The notes below the pieces were generated by a model. The model did not search any database. It was not told where the DNA came from and saw only the letters and a program-made list of their open reading frames with translations. The position numbers and the translations under genes were made by a program. Of a stretch of 48,616 nt of DNA, positions 6,072 to 20,474 are shown piece after piece; position 1 is the first letter of the stretch; every line of letters begins with the position of its first letter. This stretch comes from a virus. The stretch is from positions 1 to 48,616 of IMG/VR virus record IMGVR_UViG_3300015206_000002. One strand, 5' to 3'.

Positions 6072-6326
6072 ATGATCGATGCTTCGCTCCTCTACACGAC
6101 CTCGACCGCGGCTGAAAAGCTGGGCGTGACCCAGCAACGGATACGCGCGATGATCGCGGCGGGGCGGCTGAGCGCGACGCTGGTAGGATCGGTTTACCTC
6201 ATCACGCCGGAGCAGCTCGACGCGGTGCGCGACCGAAAGCCGGGACGACCGCGCGGTAAACTTCAACGGACGAAACCGGAGAAGCTGCCGCGCCCGCGGC
6301 ATAGCAGCACAGCCCAACACTCATAA
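6072..6326 (+). CDS. Excisionase/MerR-type HTH DNA-binding protein
   Basis: 84 residues. Residues about 9-50 (TTSTAAEKLGVTQQRIRAMI, then AAGRLSATLVGSVYLITPEQ) form the winged helix of excisionase-like HTH_17 proteins, followed by a basic tail (GRPRGKLQRTKPEK). Last gene of the 5120 operon. A role as excisionase or transcription regulator is likely; the partner integrase would be the recombinase at the left edge, if functional. Confidence 0.7.
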   Translation: MIDASLLYTTSTAAEKLGVTQQRIRAMIAAGRLSATLVGSVYLITPEQLDAVRDRKPGRPRGKLQRTKPEKLPRPRHSSTAQHS

Positions 6327-9565: not shown

Positions 9566-9726
9566 AGCTGCTGATCGCTGCGCTCCTCGCGGGCGGCGGG
9601 ATCCTCGGCGGCCTGGCGCTCGGGCTCGACGGGCGGTACGCGGCCGCGCTGGGGTTCTCGGGTTTGACGATGGTTTGCGCGGGCGCCTGGCTGCTCTACG
9701 ACAGCGTCGACGGGAGGCGGTTTTGA
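9562..9726 (+). CDS. Small membrane protein, two TM helices (54 aa)
   Basis: GTG start with AGGAGG 5 nt upstream. Two hydrophobic segments: residues 2-21 (LLIAALLAGGGILGGLALG) and about 28-46 (ALGFSGLTMVCAGAWLLY). A turn with charged residues separates them. Function unknown; in the replication region, so not an obvious holin. Confidence 0.55.
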   Translation: MKLLIAALLAGGGILGGLALGLDGRYAAALGFSGLTMVCAGAWLLYDSVDGRRF

Positions 9727-10835
9727 CTCCCAAGCCCTCAACCCGCCCGAAGTTCAACCCGGCGCTGTATTGCAAGCGCCCGGCCGAGGTCGAGCCGAAC
9801 AGCCCGCTGCCGAAATTCGGTAGCTGGGTTCAGCACGCCATGATCATGAGCGATGGCGTGATTTATCAGGCGATGGAATCGCTGAAGCCGGTGTTTCTCC
9901 CGGGTGGCCTTGAGCGGGGCGGCCAGGGCAGGCTTCTCCGCGACGCGAGCATCACGAAGATCGCGGCGGCGACCGCGCCTTTCACTTACGACGGGCAGCC
10001 AATGCCGCGCCGGACCGTCGCGCACCGGCTGGAGGCGATGACACTGAAGGGCATCATCATCCCCTGGGAGGAATCGCGCGCGAAGACGTCGCCCGTGGGA
10101 ACGAGCTGGCGGCTGCCGAACTATGACGAGATCCTCGGCTCCTGGGCAGCGAATCCCAAGATCGGGACCGTGCCGCCGCGCGCGTTTTACGTGTTCGGCA
10201 AGGGTAAGCGCCTCTTCTCTCCCGAAGAGATGGTGAGCTGGGGTCTCGATCACGCCGCCGCTGCGCGACTGCCGAACGCGCAGGCGACGCGCGTCAGGAC
10301 CGGCATTCAGGACGAGGTTACGGGCCCCGCCGCCGCGTCCGCGCCACCCGCTCCCGAGGTCAGCGCGGAACTCGATCTTGAACCGCTGAAAGACGCGCTT
10401 ATCGACGCGTGCAACGGCGCGAGCATAAAGGATGCGGAGTTCGTGTGGCGGGAAGTGGTCAAGACCACCGGGAAGAAACCCGCGCCTCCCGTCGAGGACG
10501 TGGCCGAGATGGCGCGCGAAATCGGACGCGACTGGCGCAAGACGGCGGGTTCGCGGAAGCCGCTGAACGTCGGCCTGCTTGAGAAGAGAATCGGGGGCAA
10601 GGTCGAGCGCTGGCTTAAGGCGCGAGCCCAGACCGAGAGGCAACTCAAAGACCAGAAAACATGGGCGCGTGAAGCGCGGATCAACGAAATCGCGGACGCG
10701 ATCCGGCAGGTTGAACGGCCCGACACTCCCGAGGACGACCGAGGTGCCTACCGCGCGTGGATCGCCGCCAACGAGCCGGACGAGGTCGAGGCTGCGCGGC
10801 GGGTTCTCGCCGACATAAAGGCCCGAAGTGCATGA
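9723..10835 (+). CDS. Phage replication-type winged-helix protein
   Basis: 370 residues from TTG 9723 in a TTGA overlap. The N-terminal region (GSWVQHAMIMSDGVIYQAME; ITKIAAATAPFTYDGQPMPR; HRLEAMTLKGIIIPWEESRA) has the layout of a MarR/RepO-like winged helix used by phage replication initiators. A linker rich in Ala/Pro follows, then a long charged helical C-terminus (RARAQTERQLKDQKTWAREA) that could recruit a helicase. The exact family is not certain. Confidence 0.6.
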   Translation: MTPKPSTRPKFNPALYCKRPAEVEPNSPLPKFGSWVQHAMIMSDGVIYQAMESLKPVFLPGGLERGGQGRLLRDASITKIAAATAPFTYDGQPMPRRTVAHRLEAMTLKGIIIPWEESRAKTSPVGTSWRLPNYDEILGSWAANPKIGTVPPRAFYVFGKGKRLFSPEEMVSWGLDHAAAARLPNAQATRVRTGIQDEVTGPAAASAPPAPEVSAELDLEPLKDALIDACNGASIKDAEFVWREVVKTTGKKPAPPVEDVAEMAREIGRDWRKTAGSRKPLNVGLLEKRIGGKVERWLKARAQTERQLKDQKTWAREARINEIADAIRQVERPDTPEDDRGAYRAWIAANEPDEVEAARRVLADIKARSA

Positions 10836-11155
10836 GCCCTTTCAAATACGAGGAGCCGTGCGCGTTTTGTTTTGCGAAGCCCACCGCATGGTGCCACTTT
10901 CCGATTCACGGGCGAACCAAGGATGGATACAGCATGTCCTGCATGCGTTTCGTCTGCTATCGCCACGCCCACGAACCTGACGACGGCGTTGTCTACTGCC
11001 TCGGGATGCACCTCGTCGCGAGCGAAACCGTACTTCGGCCCGTGAACCCGCATATCGCCGATCTGGCGGACCGCGCGCCCGATCTGTGGAACCCCACCAG
11101 GTCCCGATTCAAACCTCTTCGCGCCCCCGGCGAAGGCCGCCGCAGCCGCAAGTAG
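10832..11155 (+). CDS. Cys/His-rich zinc-binding protein (107 aa)
   Basis: ATGA overlap. Cys and His at 10, 13, 21, 22, 26, 37, 42, 45 and 47 make a dense zinc-binding N-terminus (PCAFCFAKPTAWCHFPIHGR). The C-terminus is basic (RSRFKPLRAPGEGRRSRK). Last gene of the run, immediately before the operator array. Confidence 0.55.
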   Translation: MSPFKYEEPCAFCFAKPTAWCHFPIHGRTKDGYSMSCMRFVCYRHAHEPDDGVVYCLGMHLVASETVLRPVNPHIADLADRAPDLWNPTRSRFKPLRAPGEGRRSRK

Positions 11156-11202
11156 CCCTTTCACCAGACCCGCTTCCGGACCGTCGACCAGCCTCAAAAG
11201 GA

Positions 11203-11296
11203 AAATGGCACAGTCTGTGCCATTTAAAAAAGCAATGTGGCACAGTCTGTGCCGGATTGGTGAACGAAATGGCATAGTCTATGCCGTAATGGCACA
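11203..11296. promoter_or_regulatory. Array of three palindromic operators plus a half-site
   Basis: Copy 1 is centred at 11214 (core GGCACAGTCTGTGCC, perfect palindrome for 23 bp, 11203-11225). Copy 2 at 11239-11253 is the same 15-bp core. Copy 3 at 11271-11285 is GGCATAGTCTATGCC, changed symmetrically in both arms. Centres are exactly 32 bp apart (11214, 11246, 11278), about three helical turns. A half-site ATGGCACA lies at 11289-11296. Such symmetric change and phasing imply a dimeric protein binding cooperatively on one DNA face. Confidence 0.75.
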
Positions 11297-11644
11297 CCCC
11301 CTCCTTATTGCCTTAGTTTCAAGTCTTTAGAGACGTAGTAGTCAAGCACCTGCTCCGCTTCCAGGAAAGCAAGCCTCCGATCCGACCGCTCCGGCTACGC
11401 CGAGCGCTTTCCATGACGGCGAGCCCGGCAGCGCGCTCGGCGTTCCGCCTGCGCGTCTACGAATAAGGAAGCGCCTGACGGCGCGTCTCTTTAACCCATA
11501 CCTGGAACTTCCACCAGCTCCGGAAACCGAATCTGGGAATGGGAGTGGCCAAAATCCACGCGCGCCGCGCCCTTCCCACCAGCGGCACCCCGCCGCGAGC
11601 GCGGCCGCCCAGGGTCAAAACCGGCGAAACCCGGCGCGACCGCG
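11297..11644. other. Gene-poor stretch after the operator array
   Basis: No convincing gene. It holds an inverted repeat GCCGAGCGC (11399-11407) / GCGCTCGGC (11433-11441) and a terminator-like stem GCGCC-TGAC-GGCGC at 11471-11484 followed by GTCTCTTT. Confidence 0.4.
11471..11491 (+). terminator. Possible intrinsic terminator
   Basis: A 5-bp GC stem with TGAC loop, then GTCTCTTT. Short stem and imperfect T-run make it a moderate candidate for ending rightward early transcription. Confidence 0.35.
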
Positions 11645-11920
11645 TTACTCCAAAAGTCCGGAAACACGGGCGGAGCGCACGGAAACTCCGGGGATAATCG
11701 GCTTCGACGGGGTGCGGGGATGCCGGGAGGTGTTGCGGCGTGGCGTGCCGGGGAGCGTGAGGCGGACGAGGCGCGAAGGCCAGCTTTCGTATCGAGCCAG
11801 TGAAGTTCGAAGGAGCGCCTTTGCGTATGCCTCGATTTCTTTGTCAACGGAGAAATCTGCCGAAGGCGGCAGGAAATCGAAGATCGTGCGCACCACTGCC
11901 GGATCCAGCCGCTTTTCCAC
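11645..11920 (-). CDS. Hypothetical protein (91 aa), leftward
   Basis: GTG start at 11920. The first 50 residues look real (DPAVVRTIFDFLPPSADFSV, then DKEIEAYAKALLRTSLARYE); the tail is Arg/Pro/Ser-rich. No family known. It is divergent from the sigma factor at 12000 and could share a control region. An overlapping longer minus frame (11491-12012) looks like a shadow. Confidence 0.4.
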   Translation of the reverse strand: MEKRLDPAVVRTIFDFLPPSADFSVDKEIEAYAKALLRTSLARYESWPSRLVRLTLPGTPRRNTSRHPRTPSKPIIPGVSVRSARVSGLLE

Positions 11921-11962
11921 CCCGCCAGCATATCGCGTACCGGCGCGTCAGGGAACCGTAAA

Positions 11963-11992
11963 GTGATCCAATCCGACGTACAATAGATCACA
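11963..11992. promoter_or_regulatory. Inverted GTGATC/GATCAC pair before the sigma gene
   Basis: GTGATC and GATCAC are inverted and separated by 18 nt, overlapping a TACAAT hexamer near 11981 that could be the sigma gene's -10 box. No good -35 is seen, suggesting activation or repression at this site. Confidence 0.35.
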
Positions 11993-11999
11993 CTCCTAT

Positions 12000-12665
12000 A
12001 TGATTCCCCCAAACGTGGTTTCTATCGCGTCCGGCGGCCATCGTGAACGCGTCATCCGCCGTCGCGACGAGCTTGCCCTCGCCCATCTGTCGCTGGTCGA
12101 CGGCCTTGCGCGCAAAGTTCACCGCAGCCTTCCGCCGTCATTCGATTTGTGCGACCTGATTGGGGAGGGGTTGCTCGCGCTGTGCGCCGCCGCCCTCCGC
12201 TACCGGCCGGACGCCCACGGCGGAGCGCCGTTTTCGGCGTTTGCGCGGAAGGGCATCCGCGGCGCGATGTTGGAAAGTGTGAGGCGAAAGCGATATGTCG
12301 AAAACACGCGTCCGGGCCTCGAGGTACTGGCCGAAACGAAAACCGGCCGGGAGCGGGAATTCGGATCCAGGTTCGATTTTTTCGACGAGACCGCCGCTCT
12401 CGATCGCGCCGCTACCGCCGCCGTCGCCGAGGAAGCGCTGGACGCCGCGAGGTTGAGGCGTCGCATAGCCGACGCCATTTCGTGGCTGCCAGCCGCCCAG
12501 CGTGCGCTGCTCGGGCACTACTACGGACCGATGGAACCGACTATCGGGATCGTTGCCAGGTCCCTCGGCCTTTCGCGCGCCGCGGCACTTGAACTGCACG
12601 ACGAGGCGATCGCCGCCGTGAGAGCGCGATTAACCGGCGGCGCCGTGGAGCGGATCGCGGCGTAG
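12000..12665 (+). CDS. Phage-encoded sigma-70 family RNA polymerase sigma factor
   Basis: 221 residues. Region 2 spans about 23-97: LALAHLSLVDGLARKVHRSL, then DLIGEGLLALCAAALRYRP (core-binding 2.2) and FSAFARKGIRGAMLESVRR (promoter melting and -10 recognition). Region 4 spans about 158-212: ISWLPAAQRALLGHYYGP then IGIVARSLGLSRAAALELHD, a helix-turn-helix for -35 recognition. The spacing without region 1.1 and the IRGAMLESVRR form resemble FliA/WhiG-type sigmas. It would redirect host polymerase to phage promoters. No SD precedes ATG 12000; inverted GTGATC/GATCAC sites lie just upstream. Confidence 0.85.
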   Translation: MIPPNVVSIASGGHRERVIRRRDELALAHLSLVDGLARKVHRSLPPSFDLCDLIGEGLLALCAAALRYRPDAHGGAPFSAFARKGIRGAMLESVRRKRYVENTRPGLEVLAETKTGREREFGSRFDFFDETAALDRAATAAVAEEALDAARLRRRIADAISWLPAAQRALLGHYYGPMEPTIGIVARSLGLSRAAALELHDEAIAAVRARLTGGAVERIAA

Positions 12666-12672
12666 TCGAGAA

Positions 12673-12759
12673 TGTCAATTTAACTTGACACTCTCGGAGA
12701 TGAACCCTTGCAGGCGGGTGCAGGAAAAAATCGCAATGGTCTGCGCGGCGCTGCACGGC
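12673..12759. repeat. Dispersed ~90-bp element, copy A
   Basis: Begins with the palindrome TGTCAA-N6-TTGACA, then GATG, TTGCAGGCGGGTGCAG, AAAAAATCGCA and CGGCGCTGCACGGC. The same blocks in the same order occur at 14912-15006, and the GC-rich half again near 15346-15388. Copy A sits between the sigma factor and the GH13 gene, so it may be its control region or a replication/packaging site. Confidence 0.6.
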
Positions 12760-12775: not shown

Positions 12776-14563
12776 GTGAGCGCTGCACTTATCACCTGGG
12801 GACGCTTCTTCGACCCGGCCGGAAACAAGGTCACGGTGCCCGCGCCGTCGACCAACCCCGGCGCACCATGGCTGTGGGATTTCCTTACCAGTCAGGCTTC
12901 TGATCTCCGCCAGTGGTTCAACGCGTGGCAGTTACCTCCCGTTTCCAAAGCGCAGGGTGGCGCTGGCGCTGGCTGTGACGGGTACGAGGTTTACGACCTT
13001 CGCGATATAGGGAGCAAAAATCAGCAGGGGAGCATCCCATCGCGGTACGGTTCACGCGAGTCTTTGCTGCGCGCGATCGCCACGGCGCATGCCAACGGGA
13101 TCGAAGTGCAGCTGGATATTTCGATGCACCAGATCGGCGGAGACAGCAACGGTTTTCTGCAATATTTCGGCAGCGACGGGAAAACGAAAAACGGCCGCGG
13201 CGCCATCACGCCCGGCGAGCTCCGCGGCAATACATCGTGGAACCCGGCTACCAAAGCCTTCAACGATCCGATCCCTCCGTTCTCGAGGGAAGATGCGGTT
13301 CCGGTCCCGTTCTACGATTATCCGTTCGGCCGCGAGCGCGTGTTCCAGAACTGCCAGCCGCCGCGGAAGTCGATTAACGACTGCGTCGATTTCGGCAGCT
13401 GGCTGCTGCGGTCTACCGGCGCGCGCGGGCCGCACCGATTTGACGATGTGAAGGGAACGTGGGCGCCGTTCGTCGCGGAATGGATGAACTCGGGCGAGAT
13501 GGCGCGCCAGCAGTTCTACAGCGAGTTTTATGCCAGCGCAGCGGACGCCGCCGCATGGGCAAACAACTATCCGATGTCGGGTCGGAGCGGCCTGGAAGAC
13601 TTTGACGCGCACTACGCTATCCAGGATGCCTGCAACAACGGCAACGCGTGGGCGCTCAACAGGGGCGGCGGCTTCAGCTGGCTTCCGGATTTATTCTGGC
13701 CTTTTGTCGAAACTCCGGATACCGACACGAGCCGGTCCCCAGGCGATCAAACTCCTGGCCAGCAGGTAGTTCTCAATAAACTTCTCGGCTACCTCTACCT
13801 CCTCACCATTCCGTGCCGCTGCGCGCTCGTCTACGCGAAGGATTATTTCGGATCGAACGTGTGGCCCGGCGCCTATGGTCTGAAGAAATCGCTGGACCCG
13901 ATGCTGTGGTCCGCGAGGCGGATGGCGTTTGGCGAAATGACCACACAATTCTGCGACAGTAAGGCAATTGTGCTGCAGCGCAACGGGCAGGGCGGCGTGA
14001 TCGGGAACAGTCCAGGGATGCTCAGCTGCCTCAACTTCGACACGTGGAACCGGCGCAAGCTCACCGTGCCGACGTGTTTCTGGCCGGGTACGCAGTTGCA
14101 CGATTTCCTCGGCCATCACGAGGACATCGTGGTAAGCAGCAACCAGACCGCCACCTTCACGATTCCGTCCGACGCTTACAACGCCGGGCAAAGCTCGATG
14201 TGCTTCTCATGGGCTGGAATCGAGGGCAGCGTTTACGAACTCGTTTCGCGCCCGACGACGCAGGTCTTCGAAGGCGCGGCCGATCTGGATATCGGCCCGG
14301 CGCCGCCCGGCGTTTACATGCCGGTCGGGCGCATCTCCTGCGCGGCGGGAACGAATCTGAAGCTCAGCGTGGCGCTTCCCGCCGGCGCGGAAGAGGCATC
14401 GATCTGGGTCACGGATCCCGCCGGGGGTACACTCGTTTCGGAACCCGCGACGTCGCTGTCGCTGAAGATCCGGACCAGCGGCTGGTACTCGCTCAGCATC
14501 AGCGCCGTCGGCGCCGTCGCCGTGCCCTTCGCGCTGACCGCGACCTACACGGCGCCGCGCTGA
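12776..14563 (+). CDS. GH13 alpha-amylase-like glycoside hydrolase
   Basis: 595 residues from GTG. The sequence follows the (beta/alpha)8 barrel of GH13 amylases: GYEVYDLRDIGSKNQQGSIP near 69-88, AHANGIEVQLDISMHQIGG near 105-122 (conserved region I position), HRFDDVKGTW at 220-229 with nucleophile-type Asp223 after Arg221, and YSEFYA near 248-253 offering Glu250 as acid/base. The third acidic site aligns with FVETPDT (Asp315), where the usual NHD His is replaced by Pro. The C-terminal ~140 residues are beta-rich. It most resembles cytoplasmic AmyA-type enzymes. It may attack an alpha-glucan capsule or host glycogen; activity is uncertain because of the altered site. No signal peptide. Confidence 0.8.
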   Translation: MSAALITWGRFFDPAGNKVTVPAPSTNPGAPWLWDFLTSQASDLRQWFNAWQLPPVSKAQGGAGAGCDGYEVYDLRDIGSKNQQGSIPSRYGSRESLLRAIATAHANGIEVQLDISMHQIGGDSNGFLQYFGSDGKTKNGRGAITPGELRGNTSWNPATKAFNDPIPPFSREDAVPVPFYDYPFGRERVFQNCQPPRKSINDCVDFGSWLLRSTGARGPHRFDDVKGTWAPFVAEWMNSGEMARQQFYSEFYASAADAAAWANNYPMSGRSGLEDFDAHYAIQDACNNGNAWALNRGGGFSWLPDLFWPFVETPDTDTSRSPGDQTPGQQVVLNKLLGYLYLLTIPCRCALVYAKDYFGSNVWPGAYGLKKSLDPMLWSARRMAFGEMTTQFCDSKAIVLQRNGQGGVIGNSPGMLSCLNFDTWNRRKLTVPTCFWPGTQLHDFLGHHEDIVVSSNQTATFTIPSDAYNAGQSSMCFSWAGIEGSVYELVSRPTTQVFEGAADLDIGPAPPGVYMPVGRISCAAGTNLKLSVALPAGAEEASIWVTDPAGGTLVSEPATSLSLKIRTSGWYSLSISAVGAVAVPFALTATYTAPR

Positions 14564-15336: not shown

Positions 15337-15563
15337 TTCGGAACGCTTGCAGCGGCGTGCAGTTGCCCGCGTCTGCACGGCGCTGCAACCCGCCGCCGCG
15401 GTCGAACGCGGGGAGCGGGCGCCGCAGATACCGTGACGGGGATGGAAGTGACTTTGAGGCTGACGAGACTGTCGAGCAGCCCGGCCTCTTCGAGCGCCGC
15501 CGTCGCGCGGGCGGTGATTTCTTCTTCGCTGAGATCGGTAAGGATCGCGAACGAGCCCTTCAT
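15333..15563 (-). CDS. Small hypothetical protein (76 aa)
   Basis: ATG 15563. Starts with MKGSFAILTDLSEEEITARA, then a helix (ATAALEEAGLLDSLVSLKVT) and a basic low-complexity tail encoded over the GC-rich copy C repeat. Coupled to its neighbours on both sides. Confidence 0.5.
   Translation of the reverse strand: MKGSFAILTDLSEEEITARATAALEEAGLLDSLVSLKVTSIPVTVSAAPAPRVRPRRRVAAPCRRGQLHAAASVPK
15346..15388. repeat. Dispersed element, partial copy C
   Basis: CTTGCAG, GCGTGCAG, TCTGCACGGCGCTGCA occur in the same order as in copies A and B, but the A-run and the TTGACA palindrome are missing. It lies inside the 15333-15563 gene and just upstream of the P-loop start. Confidence 0.45.
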
Positions 15564-15775
15564 TTCGCGAACGCCTCCCGCTTTCCGATTTGCGTCAGCG
15601 CGTCGCGATTGAACATCCAGCGCGGATTCTTCTCCGTGCCCAGATTCATTCCGCCGCCATATCCGCCCTCGCGCGCCTGCTTCAGCAGCCACGCCCGCGA
15701 CAGGCCGCTGTAGTCTGCGGCCTCCGCCGGAGTGAGCCACGGCTTCGGCCCAGGCAGCGCGGGCGCGCCATGCAA
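15560..15775 (-). CDS. HTH (excisionase-like) DNA-binding protein, 71 aa
   Basis: TTG start. KPWLTPAEAADYSGLSRAWL then LKQAREGGYGGGMNLGTEKN and RWMFNRDALTQIGKR is a full HTH_17/excisionase-like winged helix. It overlaps the end of the upstream HTH gene by 94 nt in another frame, so the two may once have been a single two-HTH protein. Confidence 0.6.
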   Translation of the reverse strand: MHGAPALPGPKPWLTPAEAADYSGLSRAWLLKQAREGGYGGGMNLGTEKNPRWMFNRDALTQIGKREAFAK

Positions 15776-17930: not shown

Positions 17931-18230
17931 TCAGCGCTTCGGCTGGAGCTCCGCCGTCATGTGCTCCCGAAGGATTTCATTGATGCGGGTCAGATGGCCT
18001 TCGCCCTTCGACTTCAGCCAGCGAAGCACGTCGGAGTCAATGCGGATCGAAACCGGAGTCTTAACCGGGCGGTAGAATCTGCCGATCGTGGCGTTCGCCC
18101 AGAACTCTGGCGGCATCACCGGAGCATCGGGGTCCGCGTTGTCGAGGCTCTTGTCGCGCTCCTCGTACGCCTTCCTGATCTCGTCCGTGATCTTAATTGT
18201 GGACGTGCGCGGTACAGGTTTGGATCTCAT
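17931..18230 (-). CDS. BrnA-family antitoxin without BrnT partner
   Basis: 99 residues. The C-terminal half (PVKTPVSIRIDSDVLRWLKS then KGEGHLTRINEILREHM) is the ribbon-helix-helix of BrnA antitoxins, preceded by the usual DxPxxPPEFW segment. BrnA normally neutralises the BrnT RNase and represses its own operon. No brnT is adjacent; instead it overlaps higA by ATGA, making a third gene in that operon. A BrnT homologue lies 20 kb away at 38046 with a different antitoxin. Confidence 0.75.
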   Translation of the reverse strand: MRSKPVPRTSTIKITDEIRKAYEERDKSLDNADPDAPVMPPEFWANATIGRFYRPVKTPVSIRIDSDVLRWLKSKGEGHLTRINEILREHMTAELQPKR

Positions 18231-18550
18231 ATTTTCCCGGCCTGATCGGCGAGGCCGGTGATCCGCACGCTGCCGTCCGCGAAGTTCGCGCGGATCTCCA
18301 GTTCGCCGCCCATCGCCCTGATGAAATCGGCCAGCGTTCGCACGTACATATCCGTGCGGCGCTCTATCTGCGAAATGGCGGACTGGTTTTTGTTCAGCAT
18401 ATGTCCGAGATGCTGCTGTGTGAGATTGCGCGCCTCGCGGACCCGGCTCAGCGGCATCTCCTCGATAATCTCTTTCACGAGGGCGTCCCGCTCGGCGATT
18501 TGTTTCGGCGTCATCTTCGCCTCAAGTTCACGGAAATTACGTCGCGGCAT
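18227..18550 (-). CDS. higA: HigA-type Xre antitoxin
   Basis: 107 residues. ALVKEIIEEMPLSRVREARN then LTQQHLGHMLNKNQSAISQI and ERRTDMYVRTLADFIRAMGG form the HTH_Xre domain with the HigA-type tail GGELEIRANFADGSVRI. It would bind the toxin and repress the operon promoter. It starts directly after the higB stop (TAAATG). Confidence 0.8.
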   Translation of the reverse strand: MPRRNFRELEAKMTPKQIAERDALVKEIIEEMPLSRVREARNLTQQHLGHMLNKNQSAISQIERRTDMYVRTLADFIRAMGGELEIRANFADGSVRITGLADQAGKI

Positions 18551-18910
18551 TTACAGTAAACCTTCTTTCTTCAGTTCAGTCAGGTGCTCGTCATAGAGGC
18601 GGTCAGCCACGGGAACATTGACCTCATACCAGCGCTGATCGCCCGTCTTATCGCCGCCCAGCAGGAGAATGCCGGTACGAAGCGGGTTGAACGCGTAAAG
18701 CACCCGGTATGGCCTTCCCTCGACCTGGATGCGCAGTTCGCGCATCTGCGAATGGCGCGATCCGGCGACACCGGAGGAGTGCGGAAACGAGAGCGTCACA
18801 CCAAACCGGCGAAGCAGATCTATGCTGACGGCGACCTTCGTCTGCTCGTTTTCGGTCAGATCGTCCCACCAGCCCGCAAACTCTTCAGTAAATTCGATCT
18901 CAACCGGCAC
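18551..18910 (-). CDS. higB: HigB/Gp49-like toxin (RelE/ParE superfamily)
   Basis: 119 residues from GTG 18910. The family signature is clear: HSQMRELRIQVEGRPYRVLY then AFNPLRTGILLLGGDKTGD and RWYEVNVPVADRLYDEHLTE. Such toxins cleave mRNA on the ribosome. GTG lies 6 nt after the -10 hexamer TATAAT with no SD, so translation is predicted to be leaderless. The promoter has been broken by the IS at 18923: the -10 remains but the -35 is 1.7 kb away. Confidence 0.8.
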   Translation of the reverse strand: MPVEIEFTEEFAGWWDDLTENEQTKVAVSIDLLRRFGVTLSFPHSSGVAGSRHSQMRELRIQVEGRPYRVLYAFNPLRTGILLLGGDKTGDQRWYEVNVPVADRLYDEHLTELKKEGLL

Positions 18911-18974: not shown

Positions 18975-19059
18975 TGAGGTATAGCAAGCCAGCCGATTGG
19001 CGGAATCGGTAGACGACCAAACAGCCCTCCCGATGCGGGGGCAGGAAAAGAGACTCGAT

Positions 19060-19545
19060 ATGTCAACCACCACCGAAAACACGATCATTGACCAATTAAC
19101 CGCTGCCGTCGCAGCCAGGAAGGACAGCTTGGTCCAGCTTCGCGGGCGAATCGAAAAACTCATCGCGCCACTGCCAGTAGGCGTTGTACTGGCGGACGAT
19201 GCAGGCGAGATCGGTAAAATCCGACGCGTCTGCACTGGCGCAAGCCAGTGGGGCAACCAAACTTGGAACGTGACGATCAAAGGTAAAGGTCTGATCGCTG
19301 ACAGGAAATTGGTCAGCGAAACTTGCGAACGATCCTACTGGGATGGCAACAACATGCACCACCATTCGACTGAGCCATTTTGCCTCTATACCGGATCTGA
19401 AATGGATATGTATGATAGCGAAGAACTGAATTGGCTGTCTGGCCGTGACACGCGAGCACTCGCCCTCCGGTTGCCCCGCGCGATTGAGCGCTACATCGAA
19501 GAATGCAAAGCGGAAGAAGTCGCCAACAAAACTACGGCGGTCTAA
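19060..19545 (+). CDS. IS passenger protein (161 aa), unknown
   Basis: ATG 19060 follows GGAAAAGAG; an upstream GTG frame extension (18997) is less likely. Residues 10-35 are helical (IIDQLTAAVAARKDSLVQLR), then a beta-rich domain (IGKIRRVCTGASQWGNQTWN) with a His/Cys-containing loop (NNMHHHSTEPFCLYTGSEMD). Co-oriented and 2 nt before the transposase ATG. Some IS1595 elements carry passenger genes; the function of this one is not known to me. Confidence 0.65.
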   Translation: MSTTTENTIIDQLTAAVAARKDSLVQLRGRIEKLIAPLPVGVVLADDAGEIGKIRRVCTGASQWGNQTWNVTIKGKGLIADRKLVSETCERSYWDGNNMHHHSTEPFCLYTGSEMDMYDSEELNWLSGRDTRALALRLPRAIERYIEECKAEEVANKTTAV

Positions 19546-19547
19546 AG

Positions 19548-20474
19548 ATGAGCAAATCCACCATCAGCACGTTTCAACTTTTCGAGCGGTTTCCCGATCA
19601 GGAAGCAGCCCGAATCTACCTGGAGGGCCGACTCTGGCCCTCCGGCCCCACCTGTCCGCAGTGCAAGTCTGGCGACCGCGTGACAACGCGCCCCAAGGGT
19701 TCTTATCGTTGCGGTGCGTGCAATAAATTCACGTTCACCGTGCGTGACGGCACGATCTTCGGAGCGTCAAAAATTCCCCTCCACAAATGGGTTTACGCGA
19801 TGTACTTGTTGGTCACCGCACGCAAAGGTATCTCCTCCATGCAACTCGCGAAGGAAATCGGCATCACTCAAAAGTCCGCATGGTTCATGCTTCAGCGCCT
19901 CCGAGAGGCGTGCTCCACGCCCGACAACATCGATAAACTGCGGGGCATCATCGAGATCGACGAAACTTTCGTAGGCGGGAAAGAGCGCAACAAACACGAG
20001 CATAAGAAACTGAAGGCAGGGCGCGGCAGTGTCGGTAAGACTCCGGTGCTCGGAATGCGCGAACGCGGTGGCCGCACCCGCGCGATGGTCGTCACATCAA
20101 CCGATGCCGGAACGATCCAAAACGAAATCCATGGAGCGGTAGAGGCTGGATCGCAACTCTACACCGATGAGTTCGGAGCGTATTCGGACCTTGACGGTCT
20201 GTTTTTCCATCACGCCACATGCAACCACAGCGCGAAGGAATGGGTCAACGGCGCGGCGCACACGAACAGCATCGAGTCCGTTTGGGCGGTCCTGAAGCGC
20301 GGGTTGCACGGCGTCTACCACCACGCCAGCGCAAAGCACCTACACCGCTACGTCGATGAGTTCGCCTGGCGGCTGAACGAGGGCAACGTAATCATCCACA
20401 CCCTGCGCCGTCTGGATTCGTTTGTCGATGCGGTAGTCGGGAAGCGCATCACGTACAAAGAGGTGATCGCATGA
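19548..20474 (+). CDS. IS1595-family ISXO2-like transposase
   Basis: 308 residues. N-terminal zinc ribbon: CPQC at 36-39 and CGAC at 55-58, followed by FTVRDGTIFGASKIPLHKWV, a hallmark of the family. HTH-like segment (GISSMQLAKEIGITQKSAWF). Catalytic triad: Asp138 in IIEIDETFVGG, Asp207 in LYTDEFGAYS, and Glu243 in NSIESVWAVLKRG. All are present, so the enzyme should be active. It inserts the element by cut-and-paste with 8-bp duplications. Confidence 0.92.
   Translation: MSKSTISTFQLFERFPDQEAARIYLEGRLWPSGPTCPQCKSGDRVTTRPKGSYRCGACNKFTFTVRDGTIFGASKIPLHKWVYAMYLLVTARKGISSMQLAKEIGITQKSAWFMLQRLREACSTPDNIDKLRGIIEIDETFVGGKERNKHEHKKLKAGRGSVGKTPVLGMRERGGRTRAMVVTSTDAGTIQNEIHGAVEAGSQLYTDEFGAYSDLDGLFFHHATCNHSAKEWVNGAAHTNSIESVWAVLKRGLHGVYHHASAKHLHRYVDEFAWRLNEGNVIIHTLRRLDSFVDAVVGKRITYKEVIA

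Follow-up and report, generated by a model that had tools for sequence, protein, structure and literature searches.

An array of three perfect palindromes at exact 32-bp spacing in an undescribed phage, probable binding sites of a symmetric protein

The analysis covered the whole of IMG/VR virus record IMGVR_UViG_3300015206_000002 (48,616 bases, the window). The features around the array, together with one protein encoded further upstream, are as follows:

6072 to 6326: excisionase-family HTH_17 protein
9723 to 10835, plus strand: 370-aa protein of the early region, candidate binder or initiator by position and inspection
10832 to 11155, plus strand: small Cys/His-containing protein of 107 aa without a family, directly upstream of the array
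11156 to 11999, no strand: stretch of 844 bp without a convincing gene, in which the tested ORFs score negative for coding
11196 to 11345, no strand: locally AT-rich stretch that holds the array (56% A+T versus a mean of 38%)
11203 to 11225: palindrome 1, perfect over 23 bp as AAATGGCACAGTCTGTGCCATTT, with the core GGCACAGTCTGTGCC at 11207 to 11221 and its centre at 11214
11239 to 11253: palindrome 2, GGCACAGTCTGTGCC, perfect over 15 bp, centre 11246
11271 to 11285: palindrome 3, GGCATAGTCTATGCC, perfect over 15 bp, centre 11278, with two compensating changes
11290 to 11296, plus strand: half-site TGGCACA, read directly from the sequence
12000 to 12665, plus strand: sigma-70 family factor (Sigma70_r2; FliA/WhiG-like), the next gene downstream

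Both copy-to-copy steps are exactly 32 bp, and all three palindromes, two of GGCACAGTCTGTGCC and one of GGCATAGTCTATGCC, are exact, as a sequence-only reading of this DNA had described them. The third copy indeed keeps its symmetry despite changed arms, its two differences falling at mirror positions where they compensate each other. The half-site that the same reading placed after the palindromes is present, but it starts 20 bp past the start of copy 3 and hence lies outside the 32-bp register. From copy to copy, the palindromes agree at 13 to 15 of 15 positions and the upstream spacers at 5 to 9 of 17, and the spacers contain no insertion or deletion. The retention of the palindromes while the spacers diverge fits a symmetric DNA-binding dimer. 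A symmetric dimer or oligomer acting on one helical face of the array is well supported at the level of sequence by its symmetry, by the compensation in copy 3 and by the exact three-turn spacing, and the earlier proposal of selection by such a dimer stands on these same grounds. The array belongs to a familiar class of element, seen here in a tailed phage not previously described, and a symmetric protein probably docks at its palindromes.

The array is also distinct within the record. A search with the palindrome pattern at up to three mismatches returns 10 matches, against 2.6 +/- 1.9 in shuffled sequences, none of which gave as many. The three array copies, each matched on both strands, account for six of these matches, and all the others carry three mismatches. 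Odd palindromes with arms of at least 7 number 10 where 5.8 are expected, and only the three of the array cluster. Just two neighbouring palindrome pairs within 60 bp arose across 30 Markov shuffles, a count that does not require like sequence between the neighbours. No second cluster of three like palindromes occurs elsewhere in the 48.6-kb record, and the motif scan of the genome that the sequence-only reading proposed returns a single array locus.

The genes flanking the array are co-directional. The array begins 48 bp past the stop codon of the 107-aa gene (10832-11155), and 704 bp separate its end from the next plus-strand start codon, that of the sigma-70 family gene at 12000. The coding scores for this gap derive from the record's own codon model, under which the sigma gene is negative too, so an atypical gene may lie within it. 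By these scores, a leftward gene on the minus strand has no likely start and no convincing end at the array, and no sigma-70-like promoter was found nearby. The AT-rich stretch is the fifth richest 150-bp window for A+T in the record and contains no long AT tract; an A-rich tract precedes each of copies 1 and 2. Further into the gap, positions 11690 to 11735 resemble the 5' end of a tmRNA (GGGGATAATCGGCTTCGACGGGG), and elsewhere positions 18989 to 19050 resemble the 5' end of a tRNA-Leu (GGCGGAATCGGTAGACG). ARAGORN and Rfam find no tRNA or tmRNA, including at these two stretches, which are possibly remnants or chance resemblances. An Rfam match to mir-9338 was rejected as far below the gathering score, and Rfam is otherwise empty.

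The array was originally placed between replication-type genes and a sigma factor. The downstream half of this description holds, whereas the replication-type genes find no database support. For the gene at 9723-10835, which codes well and ends about 370 bp upstream of the array, none of the searches gave a homologue, and there is no match in Pfam, PHROG or NCBIfam, Pfam returning nothing even at E<=10. By eye only, the N-terminal half of its product looks winged-helix-like; AlphaFold models of the full protein and of its N-terminal part are uninformative (mean pLDDT 48 and 35). Since this protein has neither homologue nor family and its models are uninformative, its proposed role as an initiator rests on position and inspection. 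Of the binders put forward from the sequence, the HTH proteins at 15560 and 15682 match HTH_17 below threshold, the ORF at 15682 also having poor coding statistics, and HigA belongs to a locus with an imperfect inverted repeat of its own upstream that is unrelated to the array. This HigBA-like toxin-antitoxin pair (18227-18910, minus strand) consists of a Gp49 toxin and an HTH_37 antitoxin. Among the proteins scanned there is no CI-like repressor or integrase, and no repressor gene adjoins the array.

Several further features were observed downstream. Directly after the sigma-factor gene, the 595-aa product of 12776-14563 (plus strand) shows a relationship to GH13 alpha-amylases, at 1e-39 in NCBIfam and down to 3e-16 against amylases in the PDB; it has no relative in 50,697 phage records, and simple patterns leave the strict GH13 motifs unmatched in it. 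Between these two genes lies an imperfect 28-bp inverted repeat, GAGAATGTCAATTTAACTTGACACTCTC (12668-12695), possibly a terminator or another operator. An IS1595/ISXO2-like transposase at 19503-20474 (plus strand) is 67% identical to one in a viral contig (L025).

The structural genes of the phage are distantly related to those of Brevundimonas phages (capsid 46% identity) and of many viral contigs. The three-copy array of like palindromes is absent from the sampled terminase and capsid relatives and from Brevundimonas phage Polewnik, and the array sequence has no match in phage records. The genes around the array likewise have no relatives in viral contigs, phage records or structural relatives, nor in 385 genomes sampled from the class to which Rhodomicrobium belongs. 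As to the scan of relatives that the sequence-only reading had suggested, structural relatives lack the array. A near-identical motif is arrayed in unrelated phage contigs.

The scan that yielded these contigs required GGCAYA-N3-TRTGCC in two closely spaced copies, and its list of matches is mixed. Arrays of the near-identical TGGCACA-N3-TGTGCCA recur in unrelated phage contigs. The fullest description concerns IMGVR_UViG_3300042450_001464 (L096), which carries six copies at 22-23-bp steps, half of them with a single mismatch, within the following feature:

L096:3706-4431, minus strand: array-bearing ORF, winged-helix-like, with weak HTH_36/GntR matches

The L096 array runs in frame and yields repeated GGTQCARGVAQGV peptides. 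Its ORF adjoins a DnaB-like helicase gene and lies near a beta clamp gene, with a LexA_DNA_bind gene coming after, and is a candidate in-gene origin of the lambda-O kind; a search for relatives of its winged-helix-like protein returned only the protein itself. In L098, a three-copy array lies 540 bp past a Prim-Pol/VapE gene, and the arrays of L043 and L099 have DnaC/SSB-like and DnaB genes 4-7 kb away. In L093, three copies at 42-bp steps, two exact and one imperfect, are spread around the start of a ribbon-helix-helix-looking gene. Other matches are of different kinds. Three TGGCATA-N3-TATGCCA palindromes in Roseibium (L091:1986-2075; steps of 44 and 30 bp) precede a GntR-like gene, opposite a transporter operon, and are likely an operator array. 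In contigs of Nocardioides guangzhouensis (among L045-L092), GGCACA-N3-TGTGCC palindromes occur genome-wide in pairs or more at 44-bp steps and are a dispersed, REP-like element family; Gordonia and Nocardioides matches fall at more than one place per genome. The two-copy scan gives no ground for claiming conservation of the motif, many matches being dispersed or tandem repeats or the Roseibium GntR-like operator array. No paper containing the exact motif was found.

Our favoured reading, held tentatively and at slightly less than even confidence, is that the palindromes are iterons at the origin of phage replication, of the lambda-O kind. At least three evenly spaced, near-identical inverted repeats in direct array, one of the traits of such an iteron origin, are present here. 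We favour this reading because the array is a single locus, is locally AT-rich and follows a possible initiator gene, and because the L096 array sits in a replication gene cluster. Each palindrome would be occupied by a dimer of a phage-encoded initiator, for which the 370-aa protein is the best candidate. With copies 32 bp or three helical turns apart, the dimers would stack along the same side of the double helix, wrapping it and melting the neighbouring AT-rich DNA for helicase loading, as lambda O does at ori-lambda. Against this reading, the 370-aa protein has no BLASTP resemblance to the L096 protein, capsid and terminase relatives carry no such array, and several of the motif-scan matches are unrelated tandem or dispersed repeats. 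In addition, the L096 array also precedes the LexA_DNA_bind gene and may have an operator role there, and the Roseibium triple array, by inspection in front of a GntR-like gene, indicates that motifs of this class can be operators.

An extension of the origin reading, which we consider rather unlikely, is that TGGCACA-N3-TGTGCCA is an iteron motif common to several unrelated phages of high-GC hosts, with varied helical-turn spacing: two turns in L096, three in the present phage and four in L093. If this were so, the origins of these phages and their dimeric initiators would form an undescribed family, with proteins too far diverged to be recognised as related. The replication genes of the present phage have no recognisable relatives; an origin at this locus would mark its replication start and offer a 15-bp bait for the initiator, and if the array is an operator, the same bait becomes a handle on the regulator.

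The array could instead be a cooperative operator of a dimeric regulator, encoded by phage or host, acting on a promoter that would lie in the 11.2-12.0-kb gap and drive the sigma-factor gene; we regard this as a real but doubtful possibility. Operators classically combine perfect symmetry with compensating changes and phasing on the helix, the next gene encodes a sigma-70 family factor, and the motif class has counterparts at gene starts, in the Roseibium triple array and in L093, where by inspection the copies overlap the 5' end of the ribbon-helix-helix-looking gene. The surroundings argue against it, with no promoter-like site nearby, the next plus-strand start 704 bp off, co-directional flanking genes, no convincing leftward gene, no adjacent repressor and only one such locus in the record. 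OR-like operators consist of dyads over promoters beside repressor or antirepressor genes, an arrangement that the array does not show. The lysis/lysogeny or early/middle switch first envisaged here finds no direct support for similar reasons, namely the distance to the start codon and the lack of a promoter-like site and of any CI-like repressor or integrase among the proteins scanned.

Distinctly unlikely is a site for another symmetric protein, be it partition or centromere-like, recombination or packaging. Dyads at a single locus and on one helical face would suit ParR/ParB-like or excisionase-type proteins, and the phage does encode the excisionase-family protein at 6072-6326, but the proteins scanned include no ParA, ParB or integrase, and the terminase genes are 10 kb away.

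The palindromes might also act as RNA hairpins, in the form of tandem terminators or leader elements, since the compensating changes in copy 3 would preserve an RNA stem as well. On the minus strand all three copies are listed as terminator-like, and copy 1, a 10-bp stem followed by TTTTCCTTTT, qualifies as a terminator by pattern. Hairpin energies come to about -12 kcal/mol for copy 1, -9.6 for copy 2 and -6.8 for copy 3. Copies 2 and 3 combine weak stems with poor T-tails. Termination does not call for a trio of nearly identical stems that share one loop and follow each other at exact 32-bp steps, and no convincing minus-strand gene ends at the array, which makes this explanation very improbable. 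Least probable of all are tandem sigma-54 promoters (TGGCAC-N5-TTGCW): copies 1 and 2 match the consensus at 9/11 with GG-N10-GC spacing and copy 3 at 8/11, but 18 matches at 9/11 occur in the record, mostly outside the array, the -12 element has no TTGC and thus departs from what defines such a promoter, no gene starts within 700 bp after the array, and the symmetry and compensating changes would go unexplained.

Among known systems, the origin of the PLE satellite has semi-palindromic iterons of the RepA_N type, which lie in non-coding DNA and are recognised by a dimeric initiator (PMC7145576). The phage array resembles it in being a direct array of inverted repeats in apparently non-coding DNA, but differs in that no RepA_N protein was detected in the phage. 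Lambda OR likewise lines up three dyads, of 17 bp each, along roughly one face of the helix. In the lambda record, however, OR lies between the divergent cI and cro genes and within 30 bp of the cro start, whereas the phage array is near no start and has no neighbouring repressor. The lambda iterons lie inside gene O at 20/24/23-bp steps, away from any start, so that in its setting far from starts the phage array resembles the lambda iterons rather than OR. Lambda iterons are directly arrayed inverted repeats of 18-19 bp, and in lambdoid phages the iteron is an imperfect inverted repeat of about 19 bp with A-tracts included; three have been reported to suffice in lambda, and lambdoid relatives have six-iteron origins (PMC7466680). 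Like the lambda origin, the phage array is a small direct array of evenly spaced inverted repeats in the early region, in surroundings that are locally AT-rich though free of a long AT tract. It differs in lying outside a gene, in its 32-bp rather than 20-24-bp steps, in its unrelated sequence and in having an initiator that is a candidate only. The L096 array, in turn, differs from it in having six copies at 22-23 bp within a winged-helix-like ORF whose product is dissimilar to the 370-aa candidate. The two nevertheless share the half-site TGGCACA/TGTGCCA, the 3-bp centre and multiple helically spaced copies, and the L096 array lies in a replication module, where its position in an ORF beside a DnaB-like helicase gene is the layout of lambda O.
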